Shown here in pieces: positions 3,056 through 60,299 of a stretch of 60,957 nucleotides of DNA. The position numbers and the translations under genes are program-made. This DNA is from a virus. The stretch lies in IMG/VR virus record IMGVR_UViG_3300025012_000094, positions 1-60,957 of that record; one strand, written 5' to 3'. The notes under the pieces were generated by a model. That model did not search any database, was not told the origin of the DNA, and saw only the letters and a list, made by a program, of their open reading frames with translations. Position 1 is the stretch's first letter. Each line of letters starts with the position of its first letter.

Positions 3056-6000
3056 TGACAACCTCCCGCTCTGGCCACTCATATTTCTTACAGGACCCAA
3101 AGTTCGGCCCGACTTCCGGGGTACTCTCTGTAGGAATCTCCATCCCGTCATAAGGCTGGCACACACACTCATGGAGAATCGGAACGACAACGCCGACGTC
3201 TTCCTTATGGATCCTTGTGACAATCTCATCATGTACTGAGGTCACCGACGAACATCGATACTTGAAAAACACCTCTGAACGCCACATAGCTGCCATGATT
3301 AACTTTGTTTGTTCAGCGGCACTACCTTGAATTTTGAAACTCCACGCCCACCGGCCGGCCTTGGCTCTGTAGAATTTGTCATTCGTTGAGAACGGGACAT
3401 GAAGGTGTCGGCGCCCTCCGAGAAACGTCAACGAGTACTTCTGCTTCTCGCATTCAGCGATGTATTTTTCGACCGCTGGCATCAGTCCTGGGAACGCCGC
3501 AGCTTTGGCGTCCATGAATGCCTGAGCCTCTTCTTCCGGAACACAGAGCATGTTGCCCAACTTCTTCGCCATGCAGAGATATGACGTGGAGAAGTTGGTC
3601 TCTTTGCCTTGGTGTCGGATTCGACTCGCAAGCGGATCCTTAGCTTCGACAGCTGCCTCAAAAGCTTCATAAGTTTCCCAGTTCTGACCTTTCTTCTGGT
3701 CTATCCCAAACCCAGTCAGAGAATGCAGGTCTTTCTTAACATCCCCGAGATAGCAAGAGAGAAAGTTTGGGTCCTGGCTCGCCCAAGCTTGTAAACGAAG
3801 CTCCTGCCCAGAGATATCCTGAGTACACAGAACATGATTCTCGTCGCCCGCGGTAACCATTTCTCTAAGCTCGCGACCTTTCTTCTTGGGCATTTGAGCC
3901 AGGTTGGGCGCCCCATGGGAGAAACGTCTTGTTGACGTCGACGACTGATTGAGGTGGTGGTGAAGCTTGCCGTCTTTCCAGTGTACAAGTACTGGATACC
4001 GTTCATAAAATAAGCTAAAGCGGGTGATGATCTTCTTCAACTCCAAGAGCGTCTTAAAGGCGTCTTCGTACTGCCCGACGTCACCAAAGGCAATGGCGTT
4101 CTTGATGGCCTCTTCGTCGGTCGAAGGTGTGCCGCCTTTACCTTCTTTGCGCATCTTGTCCGTGGGTTTGTTCCTGATCCGGATAGGCATATTCAGGGCG
4201 TCGTACATCAGCCGAGTGGCGTCCATCGGGCTGCCGGGGTTGAAGACAGGGTCGGGCACCCACCGGGCCTCGTACTCAGCGTTGACCTTGTCCAGGTCGC
4301 CGGAGGCAATAGCCTCGGCCAAAGGCTCTTCAGTGAAGAACTTCGCCAACTCTTCCAGCTTCCGAGCTTGGCACTTGAATGGCTCGCCGTAGAGAACACC
4401 GTACATCCTCTTGATCTGGACGCCGTTGAGTTCGGTCAAGGCGTCGAAGTAGGTTCCCGGCCACCTGTGGACCTCGACGTTGACCTTGCCGTCAGGAGTT
4501 CTGATGTTGGTCTTCCACTCCAGATCCATCAGGAACTGCCGGAACTTCCACCAGTGTTGATTGTAGGCTTCCTGGTCCCGGGCGGAAAGTTCTTCAACTT
4601 TGTCAAGGTCGCAGTCGACGCCGCGGTGCATAGCCAGGGCAGCAGTGTATTGGCAGTCCTGCTCGACTTCGACGAAGACGTCCAAAGTACGTTCATACTC
4701 CATTATGGCCGTGAACAAGTTCCACAATGCGTCCGTACAGAGGGTGTCGTCAAGGCCGTAATTGAGGACCTCCTGCCCGGTTACTTCAAACATGCCGGAC
4801 TTGCCGGCCAGGGTCTCTTCGTAAGTCAACTGGGTGTAATGTAACCACTTTTTCGACAGTGACTTCAGGCCGGTGATCGGCGTGTTCTCATCTACGTAGT
4901 TGGCAGCAATCTTGGTGTCATGAACATTCGGGAGAAATCCGTGATCGCCAAAGGTCTGATCTTCGCCGAACTCCCGGAACAGCACAGGCAACTCGAATCC
5001 CCCAGCCCGATGGCAAAGTATTGGGGTCGTCTTCGGGATCCATCTGAGGACCTCCTTCAGGTCGTCAAGCAGGACGTTGTCCGTGTCCTTGTGCCGGATC
5101 GGGAAATAAAAACTGTGGGGCCCGGCCGTCAAACCGCAGCCGGCGAGTTCAGAGCCGAAGACGTCGATCTTCTCACCGTTCTTTGCCAACCACTCTTTCG
5201 ACTCCGGCGGGGTGTCGGTCTCGATGTCGAGCGCGACGTGCTGTGCAGACTCCAGGGCCTGGCGAATCGTCGCGGCCCTGGTCTCGATGTTGCTGTCGGT
5301 AATCAGTCGACGAGACGGCCACCACTTCTCCATGCCCTCCTCAAACCGAAGCTTCTGCACACCACCTTCCCACTTGATTCTGTGTGCCGGCACGTGCTGA
5401 AAAGAGAACAACGCCCAGGCCGTGTACGCCGTCTGCATGTCGTCAAGGATCAACTGCAGGCATGGCAGGTCAGCAACGTCTTCCTCCAGCCGGTGCAGTT
5501 CGTCATTCTCGAGCAACTCAGCCATCATGTCCAAGCCCTCGGCGCCAAAGGCCTCGATCAGCTTCATAAACTTCTGCGGGCCAAACCCCTTCACCGAGGG
5601 GACGTTGTCAGATTGATCGCCCTTGACCAGGACCTTCCAGACCTTGATGTGGTTGGGCTCGATCAATCCGGAGGGGTGAGGAGGGTTGAGTTGGCCCTCA
5701 AGAAAGATGTCGCCGTCAAGGCACTGGAGGTCCCGGTCCCGCGTCCAGATAATCGTGTGCCGGAACCTGTTTGAAATCTCGGCGACTAAGTCGTCAGCCT
5801 CGTAGCCTTCCTTGGGCGTGGCTACGATTCCACCGAAGTCCTTGATCAGGGCTTCAGCCTTTGCCATCGCCGCGGAGTACGCCGCATACCACTCCGGCGG
5901 CCGGGGCTCACGGTTGGCTTTGTATTCGGGATAGATCTTGATCCTGTTGCCGCGGGAGTTCACCGGGTCCTTGACAAAGATCACGTCGGCCGGGCTGAAC

Positions 6001-6197
6001 TTCAGATCCGTCAACGTCTTGACCAGCGTCCCTTTAAACGTGTCGTAGATGTCGGCGTCGGTCTGGACGTAGTACTTGCGGCCCTCAAAGACGATCTCAG
6101 TCTCGTCTTCTTCGTGACGAACGTATGCGCAGGCAGTCATAATCGACGAGGCGTCGATCACGAGTCGGGCCTTGTGCACTCCGGGAAGGTCAAGCAT
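3048..6197 (-). CDS. polA: Family A DNA polymerase with 5'-3' and 3'-5' exonuclease domains
   Basis: A 1049-residue replicative polymerase with three domains, which is large for a phage. Residues ~1-290 are a FEN/PIN 5' nuclease (VIDAS, YPEYKANR, EADDLV, TRDRDL, GDQSDNVP). Next comes a DEDD 3'-5' exonuclease (LDIETD; the second motif reads HRAGGFEL, with Glu in place of the usual Asp; then YGLDDT). The C-terminal third is the polymerase: STRRFSHGAPNLAQMP, motif A DISGQELR, O-helix R-HQG-K-ETN-F-STS-Y, motif C SVHDE. The residue equivalent to E. coli Pol I 762 is Phe, a state reported mainly in lytic virioplankton. The start at 6197 is preferred because the VIDAS strand should lie near the N-terminus; it overlaps the upstream stop by 8 bases. 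Confidence 0.95.
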   Translation of the reverse strand: MLDLPGVHKARLVIDASSIMTACAYVRHEEDETEIVFEGRKYYVQTDADIYDTFKGTLVKTLTDLKFSPADVIFVKDPVNSRGNRIKIYPEYKANREPRPPEWYAAYSAAMAKAEALIKDFGGIVATPKEGYEADDLVAEISNRFRHTIIWTRDRDLQCLDGDIFLEGQLNPPHPSGLIEPNHIKVWKVLVKGDQSDNVPSVKGFGPQKFMKLIEAFGAEGLDMMAELLENDELHRLEEDVADLPCLQLILDDMQTAYTAWALFSFQHVPAHRIKWEGGVQKLRFEEGMEKWWPSRRLITDSNIETRAATIRQALESAQHVALDIETDTPPESKEWLAKNGEKIDVFGSELAGCGLTAGPHSFYFPIRHKDTDNVLLDDLKEVLRWIPKTTPILCHRAGGFELPVLFREFGEDQTFGDHGFLPNVHDTKIAANYVDENTPITGLKSLSKKWLHYTQLTYEETLAGKSGMFEVTGQEVLNYGLDDTLCTDALWNLFTAIMEYERTLDVFVEVEQDCQYTAALAMHRGVDCDLDKVEELSARDQEAYNQHWWKFRQFLMDLEWKTNIRTPDGKVNVEVHRWPGTYFDALTELNGVQIKRMYGVLYGEPFKCQARKLEELAKFFTEEPLAEAIASGDLDKVNAEYEARWVPDPVFNPGSPMDATRLMYDALNMPIRIRNKPTDKMRKEGKGGTPSTDEEAIKNAIAFGDVGQYEDAFKTLLELKKIITRFSLFYERYPVLVHWKDGKLHHHLNQSSTSTRRFSHGAPNLAQMPKKKGRELREMVTAGDENHVLCTQDISGQELRLQAWASQDPNFLSCYLGDVKKDLHSLTGFGIDQKKGQNWETYEAFEAAVEAKDPLASRIRHQGKETNFSTSYLCMAKKLGNMLCVPEEEAQAFMDAKAAAFPGLMPAVEKYIAECEKQKYSLTFLGGRRHLHVPFSTNDKFYRAKAGRWAWSFKIQGSAAEQTKLIMAAMWRSEVFFKYRCSSVTSVHDEIVTRIHKEDVGVVVPILHECVCQPYDGMEIPTESTPEVGPNFGSCKKYEWPEREVVNG

Positions 6198-6599: not shown

Positions 6600-6838
6600 C
6601 AGCGGCTCCTCCGAGAATCCTTACACACGAAATCGTCCAAAATCCTGAATGCTTCGTCGAGTCTTGGGTCAATTTTCTGTTGCCGAATATGTCTCATCTC
6701 GTAGTTTATACTAGCAAGAACGCAGGCTTCCCTCAATTCTGAGGGAGAAAAATGGGCTCTCTCAATAAGTTGTTCCAAAGTATTGACCAAGTTATGATAC
6801 TCAGGGTCATTCATGTATTTTTCTTTCGGTGTTTTCAT
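6599..6838 (-). CDS. Conserved phage protein, 79 aa
   Basis: The sequence (KYMNDPEYHNLV, then SPSELREACVLASINYEMR) resembles a small protein family I recall from many proteobacterial phages and prophages, of unknown function. It is the first gene after the terminator at 6866, so it opens the polymerase operon. A GAGGAG-type ribosome-binding site precedes the ATG. Confidence 0.65.
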   Translation of the reverse strand: MKTPKEKYMNDPEYHNLVNTLEQLIERAHFSPSELREACVLASINYEMRHIRQQKIDPRLDEAFRILDDFVCKDSRRSR

Positions 6839-6865
6839 CTGTTTCTCCTCTCAAAAGTAAAAGCT

Positions 6866-6885
6866 GGAGCCCCCAAGAGGGCTCC
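6866..6885 (-). terminator. Rho-independent terminator
   Basis: A seven-base stem GGAGCCC/GGGCTCC with a six-base loop. On the minus strand it is followed by the T-rich stretch AGCTTTTACTTTTG. It would end the short transcript made of the 278-residue gene and the tRNA-like gene. Confidence 0.65.
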
Positions 6886-6920
6886 GTAACTCCTTCCACA
6901 CATGGTGAATGAGCTAAAAT

Positions 6921-7946: not shown

Positions 7947-10628
7947 TTAATTGTGACCAATCAGTTTGATCCCTTCAAAGGACCAATCCCCTTTATGTTT
8001 GACCATGCTGTACCGCTTGCACATGGCTTCAGTGAACGACTGCTTCTGGATTTGCCGGTTGTTGGTCCGGGTACACCACTCGCTGTAGGCCTGGAACACG
8101 ACGTCGCGGCTGACGAAAGTATTAGGAATGTGCAGGACGTAGTCCTCGTCAGAGACAAAACCTGTAACAGGGTTGATCCGGATCTGCCACTGATCCATTA
8201 TCCGATTGTGGGTCTGGGTATGAGTGAAGTGATTCTGTTCCAGAAGCCGGGCAGCACCCTCCAGCGCCCAGTTTAATATCCCGGGGCCCTCGGTCTCGGC
8301 GATGACCCGGCCGTAATCACTGACCCGGTCCTTCTCGCTGATCACGGAGTCGAACCCAAGAAATAGCCATCGGCGAAGCATGCCCTCGGAAGCGTCGTCG
8401 GAGTCGATAAAGTAGTTGGAGGAGAAAATCTGGGAGCAGATCGGGATGAACGAGAACGGCGGCTCATACAGGCGCCGGGCGGAAACGAGTGAGCTGTCAA
8501 CGATCTGTTTGAAAATATCCCCAGGAATCTTTCTGTTTGCCGGCAGCTCCGGCACGAGGTTGAGCAACTTCCCGGCCAACGTCGCCCGGTAGGCCCCCTC
8601 TTTAAGATCAAAGGGAGAGATCACGCAGACATAATCCTCAGGGACGATGTGCCGGATAATATTGAACATAACGCCCTTGCCGTTGGCGCCCGGCCCTTTG
8701 AACAGAACCGCCTTGTGAAATTGGTAGTTCAGGATCCCAAATAAGATCGCACCGAAGATCTCCTGCATCAAGGGGATCTGCGTCGGGTCATTTTGAAACG
8801 CCCATTGCAGGAACCCGTCAAACATCTGAATCGAGCACTTGGGGTCAGCGTCGAACTTGAACATGTGCCGGATCTTGTACTTGGAGTCGTGCTTGACCTC
8901 GTTGATGTTCTTACCCTCAATCACATAACAGGCAGAGGGGGTGGCGAAACAGGGTTGATGATTGATAAAGAACGATTCATCCCTGAGTTTATCATAAATG
9001 TGAGAAGCAATTGCCTTGTAATCCTGCTTCCGAGAGCACCTGGCGACCCCGTCAAACTTGGCGACCATCAACTGCTGCACGGTGTTGAGGTCCAGCCCCT
9101 CCCAGACGCATTTCCCGTTATACTGGTAGACCTCGCCTTCGGCGCCGACGGCGTTCTTGGGCAGTTGCTTGATATAGAGTTCAGCAATCTGGTCGTGAGT
9201 GAGATCTTCGTCGTCGTCAGGAGGAACAAGACCGGCAAGGTAGCCGTTCTCACCAGCCTTGTTCTTTTGCTCTGCAGCCTCCTTTTCCGCTTTCTTGAAC
9301 TTGCTCAGGTCCTTGCGCAGGATCGTCGCACTGACGCCCAGAGCGACCTTCAGCTTGTCCAAGAGTTTCGCCTCGGCCACCGCGGAGTCTGCCGCGGACG
9401 TCACCATCCGCAACCAGTTCTCCTCGATCTCGGCGTCCGAGGCATTCTTCAGCCAGTTGTCAAACGTCTCATCATCGTGTTTGAGCCTGAACGTCCGGCC
9501 ACCATGAGCAAACGAATTGCAAATGATGCTGCCGTCTTCGTTGACGAAAATCTTGGCCTTTGACTTACCGTACTCCGGTTCCAACGGGTCCCGGAATGAC
9601 ATCCCGACATACGACTGAGGGTCGTTGAGGATATCCTTGACGGCGACGTAGTCGTCTTCGTCGGTCTGGAGCAAGTCCTGTGACAGAAGAAGGCCTTCGT
9701 ACCGACCGTTGATAATCTTCTTGGCCGCAGGCATCGCCAGTCCTCCGGCTTTTGCCAACGACTCTGACTGCTTCTGGATGTAGATGCTCCTGACTTTGGC
9801 AATCTCATTACTGAGTTCGGCCTTCTTCTTAGCAATCAGAGATTTGACCGGCGCCAAGAAACTCGGATTGAGGATCTCGACCTTCCGCAAGTCGATTGTC
9901 TTCCCCGGGTAGAACTCTGTCTTCGGCAACCTCTGCGTCAGGCCCGACGTCAATTGGGCGCCGGCCTCAAAGACAAGCCGCTCGGGAGAGAATACCGCGG
10001 TATCGAATATCACCCGCTCCAGGGCAGTGCCGGCTGCCGAGATCATGATCCAGCCCAACTCCTTGAACCAGCACTCGCACTTCAAGGTGGTGATGAAAGC
10101 CTCGAGCCCGTCAGGGTGCTGGCAGGGAACGTAGACGTGTTGCCCGGTCAGACCTGTGAGTTCCTTCTCCCTGTCGTAGATGAACGACGATGACGACGGG
10201 CGCCACAGCATCGCCGCGTCACTCAGCGCCGGATGCAACGCCCTGAGCTTGGCGATCAGACCCTCTTTAGACAAAGGTTGTTTCTCCGGCGGGGGGTCAT
10301 AATCGAAGTAGATCATGAACTCGCTGGCGAACTTGAACTCGCCTTTTGTCCTAGTAATGGCCCCGGGGTGCTTATCCTGCATCCCGGCAGCCACCAATTC
10401 TCCACTCGAAACCGACGGCACTCCCAACGTTATGGCCTGGTTCAACGCCAGGCCATCCAAGATCCCCGCAACATCCTCGAAGTCGACGTCAACGCGCTTG
10501 ACGGAACCCTCCGTCAATTTGCACTTGCTTGAGTCTTTCTTCAGTGCTCCTTCGGCTGTCAGCGAGAACTCTTTTGTCAGGATGCCTTGGTTTTTCGTGA
10601 CAAGCGAAAAACTTATTGCACCTGACAT
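7947..10628 (-). CDS. PrimPol (AEP) - SF3 helicase primase-helicase
   Basis: An 893-residue replicative primase-helicase. The N-terminal domain has archaeo-eukaryotic primase signatures: metal-binding D109-Y-D111 in FDYD, then S-S-S-S-F and G-L-T-G-Q-H164 as the second motif. A middle region leads to a D5-type superfamily 3 helicase with Walker A GPGANGKG near residue 647 and a downstream SSNYFIDSDD sensor-like segment. The last ~80 residues form a winged-helix-like tail (KRYSMVKHKGDWSFEGIKL). It would prime and unwind for the family A polymerase. The start overlaps the helix-turn-helix gene by 16 bases. Confidence 0.88.
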   Translation of the reverse strand: MSGAISFSLVTKNQGILTKEFSLTAEGALKKDSSKCKLTEGSVKRVDVDFEDVAGILDGLALNQAITLGVPSVSSGELVAAGMQDKHPGAITRTKGEFKFASEFMIYFDYDPPPEKQPLSKEGLIAKLRALHPALSDAAMLWRPSSSSFIYDREKELTGLTGQHVYVPCQHPDGLEAFITTLKCECWFKELGWIMISAAGTALERVIFDTAVFSPERLVFEAGAQLTSGLTQRLPKTEFYPGKTIDLRKVEILNPSFLAPVKSLIAKKKAELSNEIAKVRSIYIQKQSESLAKAGGLAMPAAKKIINGRYEGLLLSQDLLQTDEDDYVAVKDILNDPQSYVGMSFRDPLEPEYGKSKAKIFVNEDGSIICNSFAHGGRTFRLKHDDETFDNWLKNASDAEIEENWLRMVTSAADSAVAEAKLLDKLKVALGVSATILRKDLSKFKKAEKEAAEQKNKAGENGYLAGLVPPDDDEDLTHDQIAELYIKQLPKNAVGAEGEVYQYNGKCVWEGLDLNTVQQLMVAKFDGVARCSRKQDYKAIASHIYDKLRDESFFINHQPCFATPSACYVIEGKNINEVKHDSKYKIRHMFKFDADPKCSIQMFDGFLQWAFQNDPTQIPLMQEIFGAILFGILNYQFHKAVLFKGPGANGKGVMFNIIRHIVPEDYVCVISPFDLKEGAYRATLAGKLLNLVPELPANRKIPGDIFKQIVDSSLVSARRLYEPPFSFIPICSQIFSSNYFIDSDDASEGMLRRWLFLGFDSVISEKDRVSDYGRVIAETEGPGILNWALEGAARLLEQNHFTHTQTHNRIMDQWQIRINPVTGFVSDEDYVLHIPNTFVSRDVVFQAYSEWCTRTNNRQIQKQSFTEAMCKRYSMVKHKGDWSFEGIKLIGHN

Positions 10629-25940: not shown

Positions 25941-25955
25941 GTAGTTTTAGACTAC
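25941..25955. repeat. Palindrome copy 1 (GTAGTTT-N-AAACTAC family)
   Basis: It reads GTAGTTTTAGACTAC, with one mismatch in the second arm. It starts 4 bases beyond the stop of the 58-residue gene and 21 bases upstream of the next start. Confidence 0.8.
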
Positions 25956-27769: not shown

Positions 27770-28035
27770 TCTTTCTTTGCAAACCTCGGCACGAAGCAGT
27801 TCCCCAACTCGCCGGTAACATGGTCGAGGTAGCGGTTGATGCCTGTGATGTCGTGGATGAAGTTGAAGTCGTCGGCATTCAGGAGCTTCTCCAGGTCCAA
27901 CGGGCAACCGTTCATGTGGCATGCGGTGACGTCCATAATGGAGTCGAAGACCTCATAGCCTTCGAACATTTCCGCGGCCCGGGCCGCGGTCTTTTTGATC
28001 AGCACGCTGTCTTTCTCGTTTGAATTCCAGTTCAT
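27766..28035 (-). CDS. Conserved phage protein, 89 aa
   Basis: The pattern D-V-T-A-C-H-M-N-G-C-P-L-D-L, N-F-I-H-D-I-T-G-I-N-R-Y-L-D and C-F-V-P-R-F-A is a recognisable small phage family (DUF-type, unnamed function). ATG 28035 overlaps the upstream stop. The stop codon lies inside the regulatory palindrome. Confidence 0.68.
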   Translation of the reverse strand: MNWNSNEKDSVLIKKTAARAAEMFEGYEVFDSIMDVTACHMNGCPLDLEKLLNADDFNFIHDITGINRYLDHVTGELGNCFVPRFAKKE

Positions 28036-28560: not shown

Positions 28561-28902
28561 TTACAAGGCGTCAAGAAGACGTTGAGCCCCATCGCGGATC
28601 TCAGCCGCTTTGAGTTTCAAGTGCTCTCTATCAAGATGGTCCCAGGCCCAAGCTCGATATGGAGATCCCTCTCCCAGGCAGCCGTTGCTGTTACCCCAAA
28701 CTTCTTTCATGGGGCAGACGTCGGCGCAGACGGCGACGTCTGCCTGGTCATACCCAACTTCACCATAACTTTCCTTGACATAACTGCACATTGGACAACC
28801 AAAAAGATATTGGTCTGCGCCTGCTGGCTTCCTCTGGTTGCCAGTTTTGGCGAGTTCCGCCCACAGATCCACGCATGCTTTCAAAGCTTCTTTGAGTGTC
28901 AT
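28561..28902 (-). CDS. Cys-rich paralogue family, member 1
   Basis: A 113-residue protein. A helical start (L-K-E-A-L-K-A-C-V-D-L-W) leads to a Cys core: CPMC, then V-C-A-D-V-CPM, G-C-L-G-E-G-S-P-Y and a C-terminal helix ending R-D-G-A-Q-R-L-L-D. Two further members with the same plan follow upstream at 29115 and 29484. Probably zinc- or Fe-S-binding. Function is unknown. Confidence 0.65.
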   Translation of the reverse strand: MTLKEALKACVDLWAELAKTGNQRKPAGADQYLFGCPMCSYVKESYGEVGYDQADVAVCADVCPMKEVWGNSNGCLGEGSPYRAWAWDHLDREHLKLKAAEIRDGAQRLLDAL

Positions 28903-28935: not shown

Positions 28936-29115
28936 CTCTACAAAATGCTTGAGTTTTCCACATTTTGTACAGGTTAAATTTTGGATTACTTTCTGATCTA
29001 GAAAGTAATAAGGAATAGTTTCTCCTGGAGTAATGCCTATGATCTTCTTTAATCGTTCAAGTTTAGACTCTGTAATGGTTTCTGAAATGAGTTTCCAGTC
29101 GTGTTCGCAAAACAT
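28927..29115 (-). CDS. Zinc-ribbon-like protein, 62 aa
   Basis: It begins C-E-H-D-W-K-L-I-S and ends L-T-C-T-K-C-G-K, giving Cys/His pairs at both ends of the chain that can meet in one zinc site. It interrupts the tandem Cys-rich family between members 1 and 2. Function is unknown. Confidence 0.6.
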   Translation of the reverse strand: MFCEHDWKLISETITESKLERLKKIIGITPGETIPYYFLDQKVIQNLTCTKCGKLKHFVEVV

Positions 29116-29474
29116 CAGCGGTCCTCCAGTTCATCTAATTCGTCGAGAAGACGTTGAATTCCGTCACGGATTTCTTGTGCGTAATATTTTTTGTCTGAAG
29201 TTGTCACGGCAATCTTCCGCCAGTATGCATAAGGCGACCCCGGCCCCATACAACCTTTATTCGTTGTCCAAATTGTCTTTAACGGGCAGACCTTGCCGCA
29301 GACGTAGTCGTTGAGGTGGTTCTTGTGCACGGGCCGGCCCAAGCTGTAGACGTAATGGCATGCGGGATTACCTTTAAAATATACTGCAGCCCAATCAGGT
29401 ACAGTCAGACGTTTGGTAATCATCAACTCATTCCACAGTTTAAGACTCAATTCCAGAGCTTCTTTTAGTTCCAT
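29115..29474 (-). CDS. Cys-rich paralogue family, member 2
   Basis: A 119-residue protein with the same plan as members 1 and 3: helical start (K-E-A-L-E-L-S-L-K-L-W), Y-V-C-G-K-V-C-P-L-K-T-I-W, G-C-M-G-P-G-S-P-Y, and a C-terminal helix Q-E-I-R-D-G-I-Q-R-L-L-D. Its first CxxC is reduced to a single Cys. Function is unknown. Confidence 0.65.
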   Translation of the reverse strand: MELKEALELSLKLWNELMITKRLTVPDWAAVYFKGNPACHYVYSLGRPVHKNHLNDYVCGKVCPLKTIWTTNKGCMGPGSPYAYWRKIAVTTSDKKYYAQEIRDGIQRLLDELDELEDR

Positions 29475-29483
29475 ATTTAATCC

Positions 29484-29867
29484 TCAATAGCTATCAATTA
29501 TGCGGATGATCCCTGAAATAATTTCTTCCGCGGCGAGTTTCCGTTCGTTATCCGTTTTGGCATGGGCATAACGATAATACGGGGACCGCCATTTATTTCC
29601 CCAGCACCCTTTGGAATGGTATCGTTGGGGACGTTGACGTGGTGGGAATGGCGGATCCCATATGGACCTCATGGGGCAGATGACGTCGCAGTCGCAGTGT
29701 TTTTGATTCGAACCAAGGTCAACTTCGGGATAATGTTCCAGGACAAATTCACAAGCGGGGCAGGAGTTGCAGTAAATGGCAGCCCAAGAAGGTTTTTCCT
29801 GGGCTGCCGTGCTGGCCATTTCTTTCCAGATTTTCAATGATTCCAAGAGGGCTTCTTCCTTATCCAT
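29484..29867 (-). CDS. Cys-rich paralogue family, member 3
   Basis: A 127-residue protein with helical start (K-E-E-A-L-L-E-S-L-K-I-W), CPAC, C-D-C-D-V-I-C-P-M-R-S-I-W, an extended Pro/Arg-rich loop, K-G-C-W-G-N and S-P-Y-Y-R-Y. The Cys positions match members 1 and 2. Function is unknown. Confidence 0.65.
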   Translation of the reverse strand: MDKEEALLESLKIWKEMASTAAQEKPSWAAIYCNSCPACEFVLEHYPEVDLGSNQKHCDCDVICPMRSIWDPPFPPRQRPQRYHSKGCWGNKWRSPYYRYAHAKTDNERKLAAEEIISGIIRIIDSY

Positions 29868-31665: not shown

Positions 31666-31681
31666 TTTATCCCCCGTTTTG

Positions 31682-31696
31682 GTAGTTTAAAGCTAC
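31682..31696. repeat. Palindrome copy 6 (GTAGTTT-N-AAACTAC family)
   Basis: It reads GTAGTTTAAAGCTAC, with one mismatch. It lies just upstream of the ribosome-binding site of the 110-residue gene. Confidence 0.75.
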
Positions 31697-31762
31697 TTTT
31701 TGGATATCTAAACGTCCCTTCTTAGGGCATTTTTAACGTCCTGCCCGACGTCTTGCTGGCGT

Positions 31763-31848
31763 CCCTCCCCGCTTTGCGTACGCTCTACAGCGGCTTTTTC
31801 TGTAGACCAAACGCAAAGCGGGGAGGGTGATTAATCACCCTCCCCGCT
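31763..31848 (-). other. Three-arm set of mutually exclusive hairpins
   Basis: A central arm (31811-31827) pairs over 17 bases with a left arm (31763-31779), which also encloses a seven-base stem TCTACAG/CTGTAGA. The same arm takes part in a 32-base perfect palindrome (31816-31847) with a right arm. Only one pairing can form at a time. It lies between two genes, as an attenuator, terminator or recombination site would. There is no T tract. Confidence 0.7.
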
Positions 31849-31858
31849 CCCCTGCCGG

Positions 31859-31873
31859 GTAGTTTAAAACTAC
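31859..31873. repeat. Palindrome copy 7 (GTAGTTT-N-AAACTAC family)
   Basis: A perfect copy, GTAGTTTAAAACTAC, starting a few bases beyond the stop of the 193-residue gene and adjoining the three-arm hairpin set. Confidence 0.85.
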
Positions 31874-31876
31874 TTG

Positions 31877-32458
31877 CTACATTGTCGCAACCAACAGGTT
31901 AATGTTAGCCTCGTTCACGTCCAGGCCCTTCTGGGAAAGAATAGCCTTCGCCCGGTCCTTCTTCTCAGTGTGGGCGATATTGTCAGCCTTTGCTCGCAAT
32001 TCTTTGGTAGCTTCACGGAGGGCAACAGCGGCCTTGGCATGGATAGCCTTCATCTCATCAATGGTATGAGCCGGCACGGACTCCCCAAGGACGTCCCATG
32101 CATCGGACAGTTTATCGCGCTCAACCCGTGCCGTGTAAGCGATGACCGTGCAGTTATCCCCGGCGAAGTGAAGGCTGTAGGTCTCATTGGTGGCCTTGAC
32201 CATGGCAAGGCCAAGAGACCGTTTAAGGGACTGCTTTGCGGCCTTTGTTCCAGTGAATACCGCCATGGACAGGGACAGGTGATCCACGAGACGGGCGTGG
32301 TCCTTTCCGTATTCCTGGACCATGGCGACACGTTCAACCGACAGCGCCTTGTTACTGGCGGTCACGGCCTCTCTGTTGACTAGGTTTGCGGCGGTGCGGC
32401 TGAAGTGGTTCAACCAGTCGATTGTGGTCAGATCTGTTGCTGTTGCTTTCTTTTTCAT
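31877..32458 (-). CDS. Hypothetical helical protein, 193 aa
   Basis: Ala/Lys/Glu-rich helices through most of its length; no recognised motif. As one of the first genes of the leftward operon it is probably expressed early. GGAGAA precedes ATG 32458. Confidence 0.58.
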   Translation of the reverse strand: MKKKATATDLTTIDWLNHFSRTAANLVNREAVTASNKALSVERVAMVQEYGKDHARLVDHLSLSMAVFTGTKAAKQSLKRSLGLAMVKATNETYSLHFAGDNCTVIAYTARVERDKLSDAWDVLGESVPAHTIDEMKAIHAKAAVALREATKELRAKADNIAHTEKKDRAKAILSQKGLDVNEANINLLVATM

Positions 32459-32943: not shown

Positions 32944-32972
32944 ACTTTATTCGATTAACCAGGGAACGTCAA
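32944..32972 (-). promoter_or_regulatory. Leftward early promoter
   Basis: The minus strand reads TTGACG, 17 bases, TAAAGT, giving a start near 32937, just upstream of the first left-arm gene. An AAGTACTT palindrome (32971-32978) overlaps the -35 edge and could be an operator. Confidence 0.65.
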
Positions 32973-33280: not shown

Positions 33281-33304
33281 ACGTCAACGTCAACGTCAAC
33301 GTCA
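33281..33304. repeat. (ACGTCA)x4 tandem repeat
   Basis: Four perfect six-base units directly upstream of the rightward promoter. The same hexamer also occurs singly across the region, so this looks like a clustered protein-binding site rather than simple slippage. Confidence 0.85.
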
Positions 33305-40525: not shown

Positions 40526-41179
40526 ATGTTGATCACGACCTACACCAGCTATGCGGAAGTCAGGGCAGTCCTGGGCGTGTCCGCCTTGGAGTTGACCGAC
40601 ACTCAACTGGCACTGGGGATCTATGGAGAGTTCCTTTTTCAGGAGTTGTCAGGGATCAGCGGCACCCTGGCGCCGGACACTGTAGAGCGGGATCTGGCAG
40701 GGCATTTTGCTTACCTTTCGGCACTAATTAACCCGAGCAGCAGCCCGAGTTCCTCAGTTTCAGCGAGCCCAAGCTCGTCTGTTTCTGCGAGCCCGAGCGA
40801 GTCGAACAGCGCCAGCCCCAGCGCCTCGGTTTCGGCAAGTCCGAGTGCTTCGGCTTCGACAGCCCCGGTGGCGCAGCCGACGACAAACCAGAGCCTGCTG
40901 TTGAGCTACATCAAGACCTTCGCCACCTACACGGTTGCTGCAAACGTCGCTGGGACAGTCTCGCTCTTGGCGCCGAAGTCGATTTCCGACGGGAAAGCTT
41001 CGATGACTCGTTTTTCTTCCGAGCGGACTTTCGAGGCAGTGGTTGCAGATGCCAATTATCGAAAGTCCGATCTGAAGCGAAAGATTCAGGAACTGTTTGG
41101 AACTTCCCAGGCGGACAAGAGCTACCTCGGGACGGTGGTCCCGGCGATCGACGTCGTGACCGGCGTCGCTTACGAGTAA
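40526..41179 (+). CDS. Head-tail connector with an inserted Ser/Pro tract
   Basis: The N-terminal ~68 residues (Y-T-S-Y-A-E-V-R-A-V-L-G-V-S) and C-terminal ~100 residues are globular and helical and resemble small head-tail adaptor proteins. Between them is a tract of about 46 residues (69-114) made of S-P-S-S-S and S-A-S-P units. The tract splits the protein, so it should form a surface loop on the connector. Adaptor assignment is by position and size. Confidence 0.6.
   Translation: MLITTYTSYAEVRAVLGVSALELTDTQLALGIYGEFLFQELSGISGTLAPDTVERDLAGHFAYLSALINPSSSPSSSVSASPSSSVSASPSESNSASPSASVSASPSASASTAPVAQPTTNQSLLLSYIKTFATYTVAANVAGTVSLLAPKSISDGKASMTRFSSERTFEAVVADANYRKSDLKRKIQELFGTSQADKSYLGTVVPAIDVVTGVAYE
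40730..40865 (+). repeat. Ser/Pro-rich coding repeat, tract 1
   Basis: It encodes S-P-S-S-S-V-S-A-S-P-type units inside the connector gene. Codons vary between units (AGC, TCC, TCG, TCA, TCT), so the peptide pattern is better conserved than the DNA. Confidence 0.85.
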
Positions 41180-42965: not shown

Positions 42966-44273
42966 ATGCCTGCTTCTGCAAGTGCTGCTCAAATCCGGTA
43001 TCTCGAGGAAACCGTCCGCGGGACGACTCCTACTGGGAACCCGACTGAGCTCAGGGTTACTGGTGAATCCTTAAACCAGAGCATCGAGTCCGCCGCCAGC
43101 CAGGAGCTCCGCGATGACCGGATGACTCCTGACAGTATTCTGACTGGCGGCCAGGTTGGTGGAGCGCTAAACTTCGAGATGTCGTTTGAAACTTACGACC
43201 CATTTCTTGAAGCGCTGCTCGCCGGAACTTTTACCACGATTGGAACGGATAGCACTGCCGAGATCTCGGATGCTACGCTTTCCTCGGTGGATAACAGCAT
43301 CAACTCTGTGGCCGGGGATATCCCTCACACCTTGATCTCCAAGGGGCAGTGGGTCCGGATCGCTTCCGCACGGACTGCTGCAAACGTGGGTATTTACCGG
43401 GCGTCGACGTCTACCGCGGCGACGGCGAATAAACTGATCTTCGAGACTGCGGTCAAGACGGTCACCACGGATGCCACTGCCCATATGACAACCATCTCTT
43501 CATCCAGGTTGAAGAATGGGGTTGCTGATCTGCGGACGTTCTCGATCGAGAAAGAGTTCACTGACGTTGACCAGCACTTTATGTACACCAGTTGTGGCGT
43601 TGAGTCCGCCAGCTTTGACTTCTCGACAGGGTCGATGCTGACTGGTTCGCTGAACTTCCTCGGACAGACCAGCGAGCGGGACACTGACACGATGTTTCCG
43701 TCCGGGCTGGGTTCGGTTGTTGCAGCGACGACTTCGCCGGTTATGAACTCTGTGCAGGGAACTACGGTTCTTCTGGATGGGGCTTCTCTCGGGGAGTCTT
43801 GTGCTGAGTCTTTTTCTCTGAACATCGGGACCGGGCTCCGAGGCATTCGGTGTCTGGGTAGCGGGCTCGGGTTCTCTGACCTGATCCAAGGCACCTTTGA
43901 GATCACAGCCAACCTCAACATCTTCTTCGGCGCGGACTCCTCGGCATCTGTCTACGACAAGATGCTGTTGAACCAGTCGCTGTCGTTCTCGATCGCTGTG
44001 TCCGATGCGAATGGAAAGGGTTATGCCTTCAACATCGATCGGGCGAAATTGACCAGCTCCGAGATTGTGGCCGGCGGGATCAACACCGACGTTATCATGA
44101 ACTTGGGCCTGACGGCAACGATTGACACGGTCTCCAACGCGATGATTAGTATCGATCGCTTTGGTGACACCGGTCCGAGCAGTGTTGCCAGCGCCAGCCC
44201 GAGCTCCTCGGTCTCTTCGAGCCCAAGCTCCAGTGCCTCTTCGAGCGCTTCTTCCAGCCCAAGTGCTTCCTAA
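42966..44273 (+). CDS. Major tail tube protein with C-terminal Ser/Pro tail
   Basis: A 435-residue protein of the phage tail tube family: R-Y-L-E-E-T-V-R-G-T-T-P, then G-G-Q-V-G-G-A-L-N-F-E-M-S-F near the start, with long beta-rich repeats after. The last ~33 residues (403-435) are S-S-S-P-S-S-S-A-S units and would project from every tube ring if the fold is conventional. The largest surface of the tail would thus be decorated. Confidence 0.82.
   Translation: MPASASAAQIRYLEETVRGTTPTGNPTELRVTGESLNQSIESAASQELRDDRMTPDSILTGGQVGGALNFEMSFETYDPFLEALLAGTFTTIGTDSTAEISDATLSSVDNSINSVAGDIPHTLISKGQWVRIASARTAANVGIYRASTSTAATANKLIFETAVKTVTTDATAHMTTISSSRLKNGVADLRTFSIEKEFTDVDQHFMYTSCGVESASFDFSTGSMLTGSLNFLGQTSERDTDTMFPSGLGSVVAATTSPVMNSVQGTTVLLDGASLGESCAESFSLNIGTGLRGIRCLGSGLGFSDLIQGTFEITANLNIFFGADSSASVYDKMLLNQSLSFSIAVSDANGKGYAFNIDRAKLTSSEIVAGGINTDVIMNLGLTATIDTVSNAMISIDRFGDTGPSSVASASPSSSVSSSPSSSASSSASSSPSAS
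44173..44270 (+). repeat. Ser/Pro-rich coding repeat, tract 2
   Basis: A C-terminal tract of the tail tube gene, S-P-S-S-S and A-S-S-S units, ending at the stop codon. Confidence 0.85.
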
Positions 44274-52685: not shown

Positions 52686-54266
52686 ATGAAAGTCATAAAG
52701 CCTATCGCGGTTACGGATGCAACCCTGTATGGGTGTTCAGAGCCTGAAGATGACTATGCTGCCTGGGCAATTGGGACGACCTATGGTGCCGGGGACAAGG
52801 TTATAGTTCTCAGTACGCACAAGATCTATGAGTCTCTGCAGGCGGCAAACACCGGAAACGATCCGACGACCGCAACAGACTGGTGGCTGGATCTGGGCCC
52901 GACGAACCGCTGGAAGATGTTTGACAAATCAGTGGGGTCGGTCACTGCCGCGAATAACTTCCTGATCGTGATGGTCAAACTGACCGATGCTGATTTTGTG
53001 GACTCTCTGGCTCTGCTGGATATCGTTGCCAATCACGTAGTAATTGAACTCTTGGACGATGCTGTTTATGGGACGATGAGCCCAAGTGCCTCGGCCTCAG
53101 CAACAGCGAGCCCGTCAGGGGCAGCAAGTTTGAGTTCTTCTGTGTCGTCTAGCCCGACGACAAGCCCCTCGAGTAGCGCGTCTTCGAGCCCGAGTACATC
53201 AGCGTCTTCGAGCCCAAGCTCTTCGCCATCGTCCAGCCCGACGACGAGCCCGAGTACATCAGCGTCTTCGAGCCCGAGTTCTTCACCTTCGTCCAGCCCG
53301 ACAACGAGCCCGAGCGCTTCAGTATCAGGGAGCCCGACGACTAGCCCAAGTTCGTCAGAAAGCGCAAGCCCGAGTTCTTCAGCCAGCAGCAGTTTGAGTG
53401 CTTCAACCAGCCCGTCTGGAGGACCAAGTGTCAGCGCCTCTGGGGGGCCCAGCACCAGCTCCAGCCTGTCAAATAGCCCATCAGCATCGCCGAGTGCCAG
53501 CGGGGGCAACTATCTGACCGACGGTGACGGGAACTTCTTGGTTGATGGGGCGGGCAACAGGTTGAAAGACGGCGGCGTCGGGGATGACGGTGGGGCCTCG
53601 TCTTCAGCTTCGTCGAGCGTATCCTCAAGCCCGACGACAAGTTTGAGTTCTTCTGTGTCGTCTAGCCCAACAACAAGCCCGAGCTCGTCAGAGAGTGCAA
53701 GCCCAAGTTCGTCAGCCAGCGCCAGCCCTTACCCGGTTGGAGTGCTCTGGCACTATGAGACTGATTTGATATCTGCTCCGGATGAGACTGACAATGACTG
53801 GTATCAATATTTCTTCTCAGCACTGGAGAATCTCGAAGATTATTTGCTTCTGAATATGCCGACTTACACCAATGCAATCCTTAAAGTTACTCTAACCGGG
53901 ACGACTGTAGAGGTGGGGACGTTCGCATTTGGAAAGTCAGTTTACATTGGGGAGACTCAGTGGGGGCTGCAGTTGGGTATACTGGACTATTCGACAAAAG
54001 AGACTGACGACTTTGGGGTGACTTCTGTTGTTGAACGGGTTTATGCCGACAAGATGGAGTGTGATCTTTTTCTGGAACACAGCATGGTGAGGATGGTTAA
54101 GAAATTCCTTTCAAGTGTCAGGGCTACCCCCTGCGTTTGGATGGGCACCGAGGTCAGTACATTTTCCGAGTTAACAATTGTTTATGGATTCTATAAGAAT
54201 TTTGATATAGTACTACAAGATTACGGTGGGAGTATCTGCTCTCTCGAAATCGAAGGTTTAACTTAA
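52686..54266 (+). CDS. Distal tail protein with carbohydrate-binding-like domain and Ser/Pro tracts
   Basis: ATG 52686 overlaps the end region of the tape measure gene. A 526-residue protein: residues ~25-75 (W-A-I-G-T-T-Y-G-A-G-D, N-T-G-N-D-P, W-W) resemble a chitin-binding CBM5/12-like domain. Residues 131-273 and 303-348 are Ser/Pro/Thr tracts split by a D-G-D-G-N-F-L-V-D-G-A-G-N insert. The C-terminal ~175 residues (Y-G-F-Y-K-N-F-D near the end) resemble the second half of a phage tail protein that, from memory, normally lacks the tract. So the repeats appear inserted into a loop. Confidence 0.68.
   Translation: MKVIKPIAVTDATLYGCSEPEDDYAAWAIGTTYGAGDKVIVLSTHKIYESLQAANTGNDPTTATDWWLDLGPTNRWKMFDKSVGSVTAANNFLIVMVKLTDADFVDSLALLDIVANHVVIELLDDAVYGTMSPSASASATASPSGAASLSSSVSSSPTTSPSSSASSSPSTSASSSPSSSPSSSPTTSPSTSASSSPSSSPSSSPTTSPSASVSGSPTTSPSSSESASPSSSASSSLSASTSPSGGPSVSASGGPSTSSSLSNSPSASPSASGGNYLTDGDGNFLVDGAGNRLKDGGVGDDGGASSSASSSVSSSPTTSLSSSVSSSPTTSPSSSESASPSSSASASPYPVGVLWHYETDLISAPDETDNDWYQYFFSALENLEDYLLLNMPTYTNAILKVTLTGTTVEVGTFAFGKSVYIGETQWGLQLGILDYSTKETDDFGVTSVVERVYADKMECDLFLEHSMVRMVKKFLSSVRATPCVWMGTEVSTFSELTIVYGFYKNFDIVLQDYGGSICSLEIEGLT
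53076..53505 (+). repeat. Ser/Pro/Thr-rich coding repeat, tract 3a
   Basis: About 143 codons of S-P-T-T-S-P-S-S-S units. A 60-base unit is tandemly duplicated (53186-53245 and 53246-53305) with few differences, showing growth by duplication. Confidence 0.88.
53594..53730 (+). repeat. Ser/Pro/Thr-rich coding repeat, tract 3b
   Basis: A second tract in the same gene. A 41-base segment (53640-53680) is a near-identical copy of 53127-53167, two mismatches. Confidence 0.88.
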
Positions 54267-59561: not shown

Positions 59562-60299
59562 ATGAGTCAAGTATTGATTGCGCCGACAACGGCGGCAGCG
59601 GAATACAAGATGAAGATTCCGCAGAACCGGTTCAACATGACGATCCAGGTCGACGCCAGCATCGGCGCCGCGGAGGTGGTTGAACTTAAGCAGTTGGATA
59701 CGGATCAGCAGTGGCGGGCGATTGTTCTCGGCGGGGCACCCCTGGTCCTGTCAGCGTCCAACACTCAAATCAGCTTCACCGCGACGAATCTGATCAAACT
59801 GGTGAAGCCCATAACTGTTGCGGCCGTCGGCGTTCAGTTGCTGTCTGATCTTGGGTTTGGTGAGAACGAGGCATCTGATAGTGCCAGCACGTCAGCATCG
59901 AGCAGCGCGTCCTCGAGCCCGAGCTCAAGCGCGTCCTCAAGCCCGACGACTTCAGCTTCGTCCAGTCCGACGACTTCGCCGTCCTCGAGCGCTTCTTCAA
60001 GCCCGAGCGCTTCGCTGTCCGGCAGCGCTACGACAAGTCCGAGTTCGTCTGCGAGCGCAAGCCCGAGCGCTTCACTGTCCGGCAGTGCTACGACGAGCCC
60101 GAGTGCTTCAGCTTCAGGCAGCCCGACGACCAGTGCGAGCTCAAGCCCGACGACAAGCCCAAGCTCTTCGGCATCGTCCAGCCCGACGACTAGTGCGAGC
60201 TCTTCAGCTTCTTCGAGCCCGACGACTTCAGCTTCAGGAAGCCCGACGACAAGTCCGAGTTCTTCGGCGAGCGCTTCTCCGTCAAGTTCACCGTCTTGA
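59562..60299 (+). CDS. Virion surface protein with long Ser/Pro/Thr tail
   Basis: A 245-residue protein: residues 1-~101 form a compact, beta-rich head, and 102-245 are pure S-P-T-T-S and S-S-S-A-S units. More than half the chain is mucin-like. It immediately precedes the glycosyltransferase, with a GAGGAG ribosome-binding site for that gene just after its stop. Confidence 0.62.
   Translation: MSQVLIAPTTAAAEYKMKIPQNRFNMTIQVDASIGAAEVVELKQLDTDQQWRAIVLGGAPLVLSASNTQISFTATNLIKLVKPITVAAVGVQLLSDLGFGENEASDSASTSASSSASSSPSSSASSSPTTSASSSPTTSPSSSASSSPSASLSGSATTSPSSSASASPSASLSGSATTSPSASASGSPTTSASSSPTTSPSSSASSSPTTSASSSASSSPTTSASGSPTTSPSSSASASPSSSPS
59866..60297 (+). repeat. Ser/Pro/Thr-rich coding repeat, tract 5
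   Basis: The longest C-terminal tract, about 144 codons, with units of 9 to 18 bases such as AGCCCGACGACAAGC recurring with synonymous changes. Confidence 0.88.

Follow-up and report, generated by a model that had tools for sequence, protein, structure and literature searches.

The put RNA of phage HK022 modifies RNA polymerase so that the enzyme resists termination without a phage protein. Like the element described here, put consists of two adjacent stem-loops, about 70 nt in all, in a phage early transcript (PMC9378689). However, put sites are similar in sequence and lie near early promoters, whereas the present element follows genes and often occurs with boxA. Intercistronic hairpins provide a second parallel: a stem-loop at the 3' end stops 3'-5' exonucleases, and puf mRNA is made more stable by several hairpins (review PMC7509114). 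The puf operon hairpins and REP-type stabilisers are strong, GC-rich, placed right after a stop codon and free of a U-tract, as is the element; unlike them, it has two hairpins that share an arm base (arm A repeats arm C), with unrelated sequences across a wide phage group. The boxB-boxA leaders of rrn and lambda nut are also similar, in that many relatives have hairpins and then an rrn-like boxA on the same strand, but there is no significant boxA in the window, and two overlapping hairpins take the place of one boxB. Attenuators and riboswitch expression platforms share with the element the use of alternative, mutually exclusive pairings; in contrast to them, the element has neither a terminator U-tract nor a conserved sensor core, and it sits 3' of a gene.

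The stretch of DNA analyzed, referred to as the window, is 60,957 bases long (positions 1–60,957 of IMG/VR virus record IMGVR_UViG_3300025012_000094) and contains terminase, portal, major head protein and tape-measure genes. Contig G001 is collinear with the window at 99.98–100% identity and is circularly permuted relative to it, indicating a genome of ~76.4 kb. A DNA similarity search against known phages gave no match, and the terminase is only ~25% identical to those of cultured phages such as Lana, Seuss and EAb13. From a candidate promoter near 32,950, a leftward early run encodes proteins of 53, 86 and 193 aa, followed by a gap, a 110-aa gene and many more. Searches of Pfam and PHROGs with the 193-aa protein and its counterparts in other phages returned nothing informative. 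The gap (31666–31876) holds the element and, in agreement with the earlier note, is 211 bases long and has no T run. Since both adjoining genes are on the minus strand, the minus-strand transcript is the one to consider.

Several other features of the window were recorded. Three adjoining paralogous genes of 113–127 aa, 30–42% identical, occupy 28561–28902, 29115–29474 and 29484–29867 (minus strand). Ser/Pro/Ala-rich repeat tracts in several late-region genes (40736–40864, 44190–44269, 53111–53716 and 59892–60295) are low-complexity linkers common to several proteins. A perfect GC palindrome of 18 bases at 27972–27989 lies antisense to early genes and, on the plus strand, leads into a T-rich run. 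A tandem array of CGTCAA hexamers lies between early genes of a relative, and only a few copies are present in the window (L005 ~8900–9000; window 33281–33303; G002 ~6795–6888).

The element consists of a perfect 17-bp inverted repeat (31763–31779 with 31811–31827) and a perfect 32-base palindrome (31817–31848). The former exceeds every other short-loop hairpin of the window in length, and the latter every other palindrome. On the minus strand, the TAG stop codon is followed by a palindromic box, hairpin 1 (14 bp, UUAA loop) and hairpin 2 (17 bp, enclosing a 7-bp apical hairpin); coordinates are given in Table 1. The folding z-score is -7.35, and none of 200 dinucleotide shuffles was equally stable. 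The three-arm inverted repeat proposed for 31763–31848 is therefore real and far beyond chance. Forcing full A:B or full B:C pairing gives nearly equal energies (-66.8 vs -66.2 kcal/mol). As 11 of the 17 central bases (31817–31827) are common to both pairings, the stems are mutually exclusive at their bases only and their upper parts can coexist, so mutual exclusion holds for the stem bases and not, as first described, for the whole 17-base central arm. Because the base of arm B serves both hairpins, the 5' end of arm A equals the 3' end of arm C, AGCGGGGAGGG. No U-tract follows hairpin 1 or hairpin 2 on either strand of the window, and terminator scans gave no match at the element.

Table 1. 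Positions of the element and neighbouring features in the window.
Feature	Position	Strand	Remark
Candidate sigma-70 promoter of leftward run, TTGACG-17-TAAAGT	32944..32972	-	consensus match only
193-aa gene upstream of element; its stop (TAG) precedes element	31877..32458	-	no Pfam/PHROGs match
Palindromic box between stop codon and arm A, GTAGTTTTAAACTAC	31859..31873	-	also in relative
Arm A, 5' arm of hairpin 1, AGCGGGGAGGGTGA	31835..31848	-
First 11 nt of arm A, repeating the end of arm C	31838..31848	-
Tetraloop of hairpin 1, UUAA	31831..31834	-	relative: UUGU
Arm B as used in hairpin 1, TCACCCTCCCCGCT	31817..31830	-
Shared 11-nt base	31817..31827	-	partner is arm A (hairpin 1) or arm C (hairpin 2)
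Arm B as used in hairpin 2, CCCTCCCCGCTTTGCGT	31811..31827	-
Apical hairpin of hairpin 2, 5' arm, TCTACAG	31800..31806	-	relative: TATCGG/CCGATA
Apical hairpin of hairpin 2, 3' arm, CTGTAGA	31784..31790	-
Arm C, 3' arm of hairpin 2, ACGCAAAGCGGGGAGGG	31763..31779	-	no U-tract after
Weak boxA-like sequence, GGACGTTAAAAAT	31729..31741	-	20 nt past hairpin 2; 9/13 match, p 0.24 (not significant)
Second palindromic box, 5' of next gene's ribosome-binding site	31682..31696	-	1 mismatch
Next gene of leftward run, 110 aa	31333..31665	-	77% identical in relative

Palindrome copies do flank the element on either side, as had been noticed earlier. The box GTAGTTTNAAACTAC occurs at 25941, 27755, 28328, 28921, 30272, 31682 and 31859; with up to 3 mismatches there are 11 matches compared to 1.5 expected, clustered in the early region at 26–32 kb, and several copies sit just 5' of ribosome-binding sites. 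The box is possibly an operator or a start-associated hairpin.

Both hairpins are kept in the closest relative, a single genotype represented by IMG/VR contigs L005 and L006, in which the 193-aa protein is 84% identical. Compensated changes, whose absence from relatives the earlier note had given as grounds for refutation, are found in both stems: a G-C pair has become C-G in hairpin 1 and a U-A pair C-G in hairpin 2. The apical hairpin has been rewritten with its stem rebuilt (CUACAG/CUGUAG to UAUCGG/CCGAUA). At the level of the window, this covariation rests on one comparison between two genotypes of close relatives. In the relative, the outermost pair of hairpin 1, A-U in the window, is A opposite C, and arm C is without its outer extension, so that 5 nt of shared base are strictly paired there, compared to 11 nt in the window. 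Since the loop of the relative is UUGU rather than UUAA, what is conserved is a hairpin with a tetraloop and not the perfect palindrome; this non-palindromic loop also ruled out a protelomerase-like perfect palindrome. Searching IMG/VR with the DNA pattern CCCGCYTTGCGTTTGG recovered the structure in three close contigs only, the other matches being chance, and the 99 matches to GTAGTTTNAAACTACC are by estimate about the chance expectation.

An alignment of terminases, including those of cultured phages, gave 80 loci at 26–100% identity. Among the more distant phages (terminase 26–45% identical), most loci with sufficient upstream sequence have tandem hairpins just past the stop codon of a 180–270-aa leftward gene, 1.7–3.7 kb upstream of terminase and in the same orientation. 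A scan for the three-arm form, with overlap required, gave 28 matches in 1.09 Mb compared to 0 in three shuffles; these lie 1.7–3.3 kb upstream of terminase in the same orientation, save for the repeat-rich L156 and L212 and for the L224/L225 pair. A more tolerant version found ~25 members upstream of terminase compared to 2 matches in shuffled upstream sequence, and 8 matches in 433 kb of downstream sequence. Without the overlap requirement, and with tandem hairpins sought no farther than 36 nt past the stop of leftward ORFs of 150 aa or more, 31 of 87 loci and named phages were positive compared to 0 of 222 shuffled 3' ends. Of these, UAntarctica, JWF, L226, L173 and L187 lie at other distances from terminase and may be unrelated; the 31 also include three near-duplicate pairs. 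Tandem hairpins are present in 30 of the 46 loci with more than 3.4 kb of sequence upstream of terminase. Many distant phages thus show the same three-arm design.

About 20 of the 31 tandem-hairpin loci have a shared base of at least 4 nt, for which the chance in neighbouring hairpins is ~1/256. The shared base is 4–13 nt in most members and is lacking in L184, L201 and KB12-38. Its sequence is wholly different by lineage (for example TCGGCA, GCCTAGCCC, CAAGAG, TAAGTG, GCATAC, CTTAG). Hairpin 1 begins 4–12 nt past the stop in nearly all members and 28 nt past it in the window, where the GTAGTTTTAAACTAC box intervenes. Orthology of the upstream gene between the window and distant phages was assigned by position and size, not sequence; a profile comparison of the upstream proteins joined several distant groups and did not join the window's protein to them. 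Strong covariation is seen within one genus for hairpin 2 and for a third hairpin with loop CANAACGC, with 18 double-change pairs and 94% of cells paired; there were 41 double-change cells compared to 14.8 in shuffled data, and 0 of 500 shuffles reached either value. The element is also present in the cultured Xylophilus phage Lumi, 7 nt past the stop of Lumi_003 (z = -7.97), and the Lumi genome paper makes no mention of hairpins, terminators or non-coding RNA (PMC9959647). Elsewhere around the element, L206 has a gene at 5307–6041 (plus strand) with counterparts in 7 loci, a conserved ~245-aa gene on the opposite strand 1.5–3.9 kb beyond the element. From these sequence comparisons, tandem hairpins kept in shape, not sequence, at the same place after an early gene are a real RNA element that is apparently undescribed. 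The element probably influences how that early message ends or is transcribed further.

Because inverted repeats are symmetric in DNA, a role at the DNA level was also considered: protein-binding dyads, a replication or packaging signal, or a by-product left when the template is switched between quasi-palindromes. Such switching can produce perfect repeats and is thus a conceivable source of those in the window, which are in a region near the divergence of early and packaging genes. However, the two strands are not equivalent. GNRA sequences account for 8 of 28 four-base loops on the minus strand and for 0 on the plus strand, and under symmetric scoring G-U outnumbers A-C by 24 to 9 (p = 0.014). 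Together with the gene context, the loops and G-U bias indicate that the leftward RNA is the functional form. The fixed orientation and position after a stop codon, and the non-palindromic loop of the close relative, also argue against a DNA-level feature, which we regard as very improbable.

The 3' end of this early gene therefore carries a conserved RNA double hairpin, in which an arm base is usually shared. The earlier note had called the alternative pairings a hallmark of attenuators and riboswitches, and our data do not support that assignment. There is no ligand-like conserved core, as arm sequences differ completely between lineages; the element lies 3' of a gene and not in a 5' leader; and Rfam searches of the window and seven relatives returned only tRNAs at the gathering score, while low-threshold searches with the element itself gave only chance-level matches such as miRNA hairpins. 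An attenuator or terminator switch acting co-transcriptionally, in which one pairing would stop transcription and the other allow it, perhaps depending on the ribosome as it completes the upstream gene, would make use of the mutually exclusive stem bases and their nearly equal energies. Arm A, at 4–12 nt past the stop in most relatives, could be covered by a terminating ribosome, and true terminators are present at the same place in some related phages. In the window, however, the 28-nt spacing places arm A outside the footprint of a terminating ribosome, and a U-tract after either hairpin is absent in nearly all members. We consider such a switch quite unlikely.

Processive antitermination is the strongest rival, because of the association with boxA. 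Here, tandem hairpins and boxA would load NusB/S10 and other factors on RNA polymerase, which would then read through the untranslated stretch and, farther along the long leftward operon, (Rho-dependent) terminators. In 10 of 23 members, the same strand carries a CTTTAACAA-type boxA no more than 200 nt 3' of the element, and weaker forms occur in several more. This motif has 14 matches in 4.4 kb compared to 29 in 880 kb of background, a ~100-fold enrichment, with 0 on the opposite strand, and its full form CTCTTTAACAAT, present in L206 and L208, matches the E. coli rrnB boxA exactly. The boxA of L174 is 10 nt past hairpin 2 and a boxA-like sequence in L184 follows immediately; a separate promoter would not fit there. 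HK022 put, too, is built of two stem-loops (PMC9378689), and a place after the first genes of a run resembles that of nutR. On the other hand, no significant boxA follows the element in the window (p 0.24) or the closest relative (p 0.85), and in Lumi the next gene begins too close for one. In all three a gene begins soon after the element; boxA-bearing members have a long untranslated stretch there. In addition, put RNAs are similar in sequence and these hairpins are not: no sequence is common even among members. Put sites were not recognised in the HK022 stretch examined. A terminator scan found no strong intrinsic terminator on the leftward strand within the window's operon. On balance, antitermination as the main role seems somewhat unlikely.

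A conserved non-coding stretch of ~400–500 nt follows the element on the minus strand in L203, L205, L206, L208, L213, L214 and L216. Besides the third hairpin (loop CANAACGC) and boxA, it includes GTGAATTCGT and additional hairpins that covary, and is a candidate for a larger structured ncRNA not in Rfam.

The reading we prefer, with a probability of roughly 0.4 and drawn from sequence comparison, is that the element is an intercistronic 3'-end element of the leftward early mRNA, serving immediately 3' of the 193-aa gene as a decay barrier or processing site. As in an mRNA stabiliser, a stable intercistronic hairpin lies near the upstream stop without a U-tract. Related phages vary at this gene position: a single hairpin is present in PMBT3 and Lana, and hairpins with T-runs in JWF, EAb13, L156 and L162; the three-arm form was absent from the whole genomes of SHOU24 and PMBT3. 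This suggests that a strong 3' hairpin is the common denominator. The lack of sequence conservation between lineages is expected of a generic barrier or double-stranded RNA substrate and, with this common denominator, favours a generic 3'-end role over a put-like, sequence-specific RNA that binds RNA polymerase.

In such a role, the double hairpin would cap or process the 3' end of the upstream gene's mRNA, as a barrier to 3'-5' exonucleases and/or a double-stranded RNase III substrate, and this would uncouple the upstream gene from the rest of the operon. As A begins (5') with the sequence in which C ends (3'), the base of B always has a partner. Arm C would take the base of B once transcribed; if C were removed from the 3' side, A could reclaim that base and rebuild a full-length hairpin 1 as a second barrier. 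Alternatively, the shared arm may keep the two hairpins stacked without a gap. Against a plain barrier, the shared base would be superfluous, and L184, L201 and KB12-38 do without it; the 28-nt spacing after the stop in the window, outside the usual 4–12 nt, also counts against the barrier model, and the boxA motifs downstream in many members suggest a further role or another one. A 3'-end role and antitermination may both apply, with the hairpins ending or protecting the upstream message and boxA escorting onward polymerases.

A broader proposal is that the element represents a new class of phage RNA device, in which two hairpins undergo three-strand exchange over a shared arm base and selection acts on complementarity alone across many lineages. 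Often coupled to an rrn-type boxA, this device would act in protein-independent or host-factor antitermination or as a 3'-end switch of the early operon. We think this unlikely.

An RNA conserved in shape and not in sequence escapes homology-based RNA libraries, and this element occurs widely among a large group of siphophages; even in the cultured phages examined it is not annotated. As Lumi is cultured and carries the element, its function is directly testable. If coupled with boxA, the element would add a type of phage antitermination leader that uses host Nus factors, and if the shared arm is a working strand exchange, it would be a simple natural example of three-strand RNA switching.
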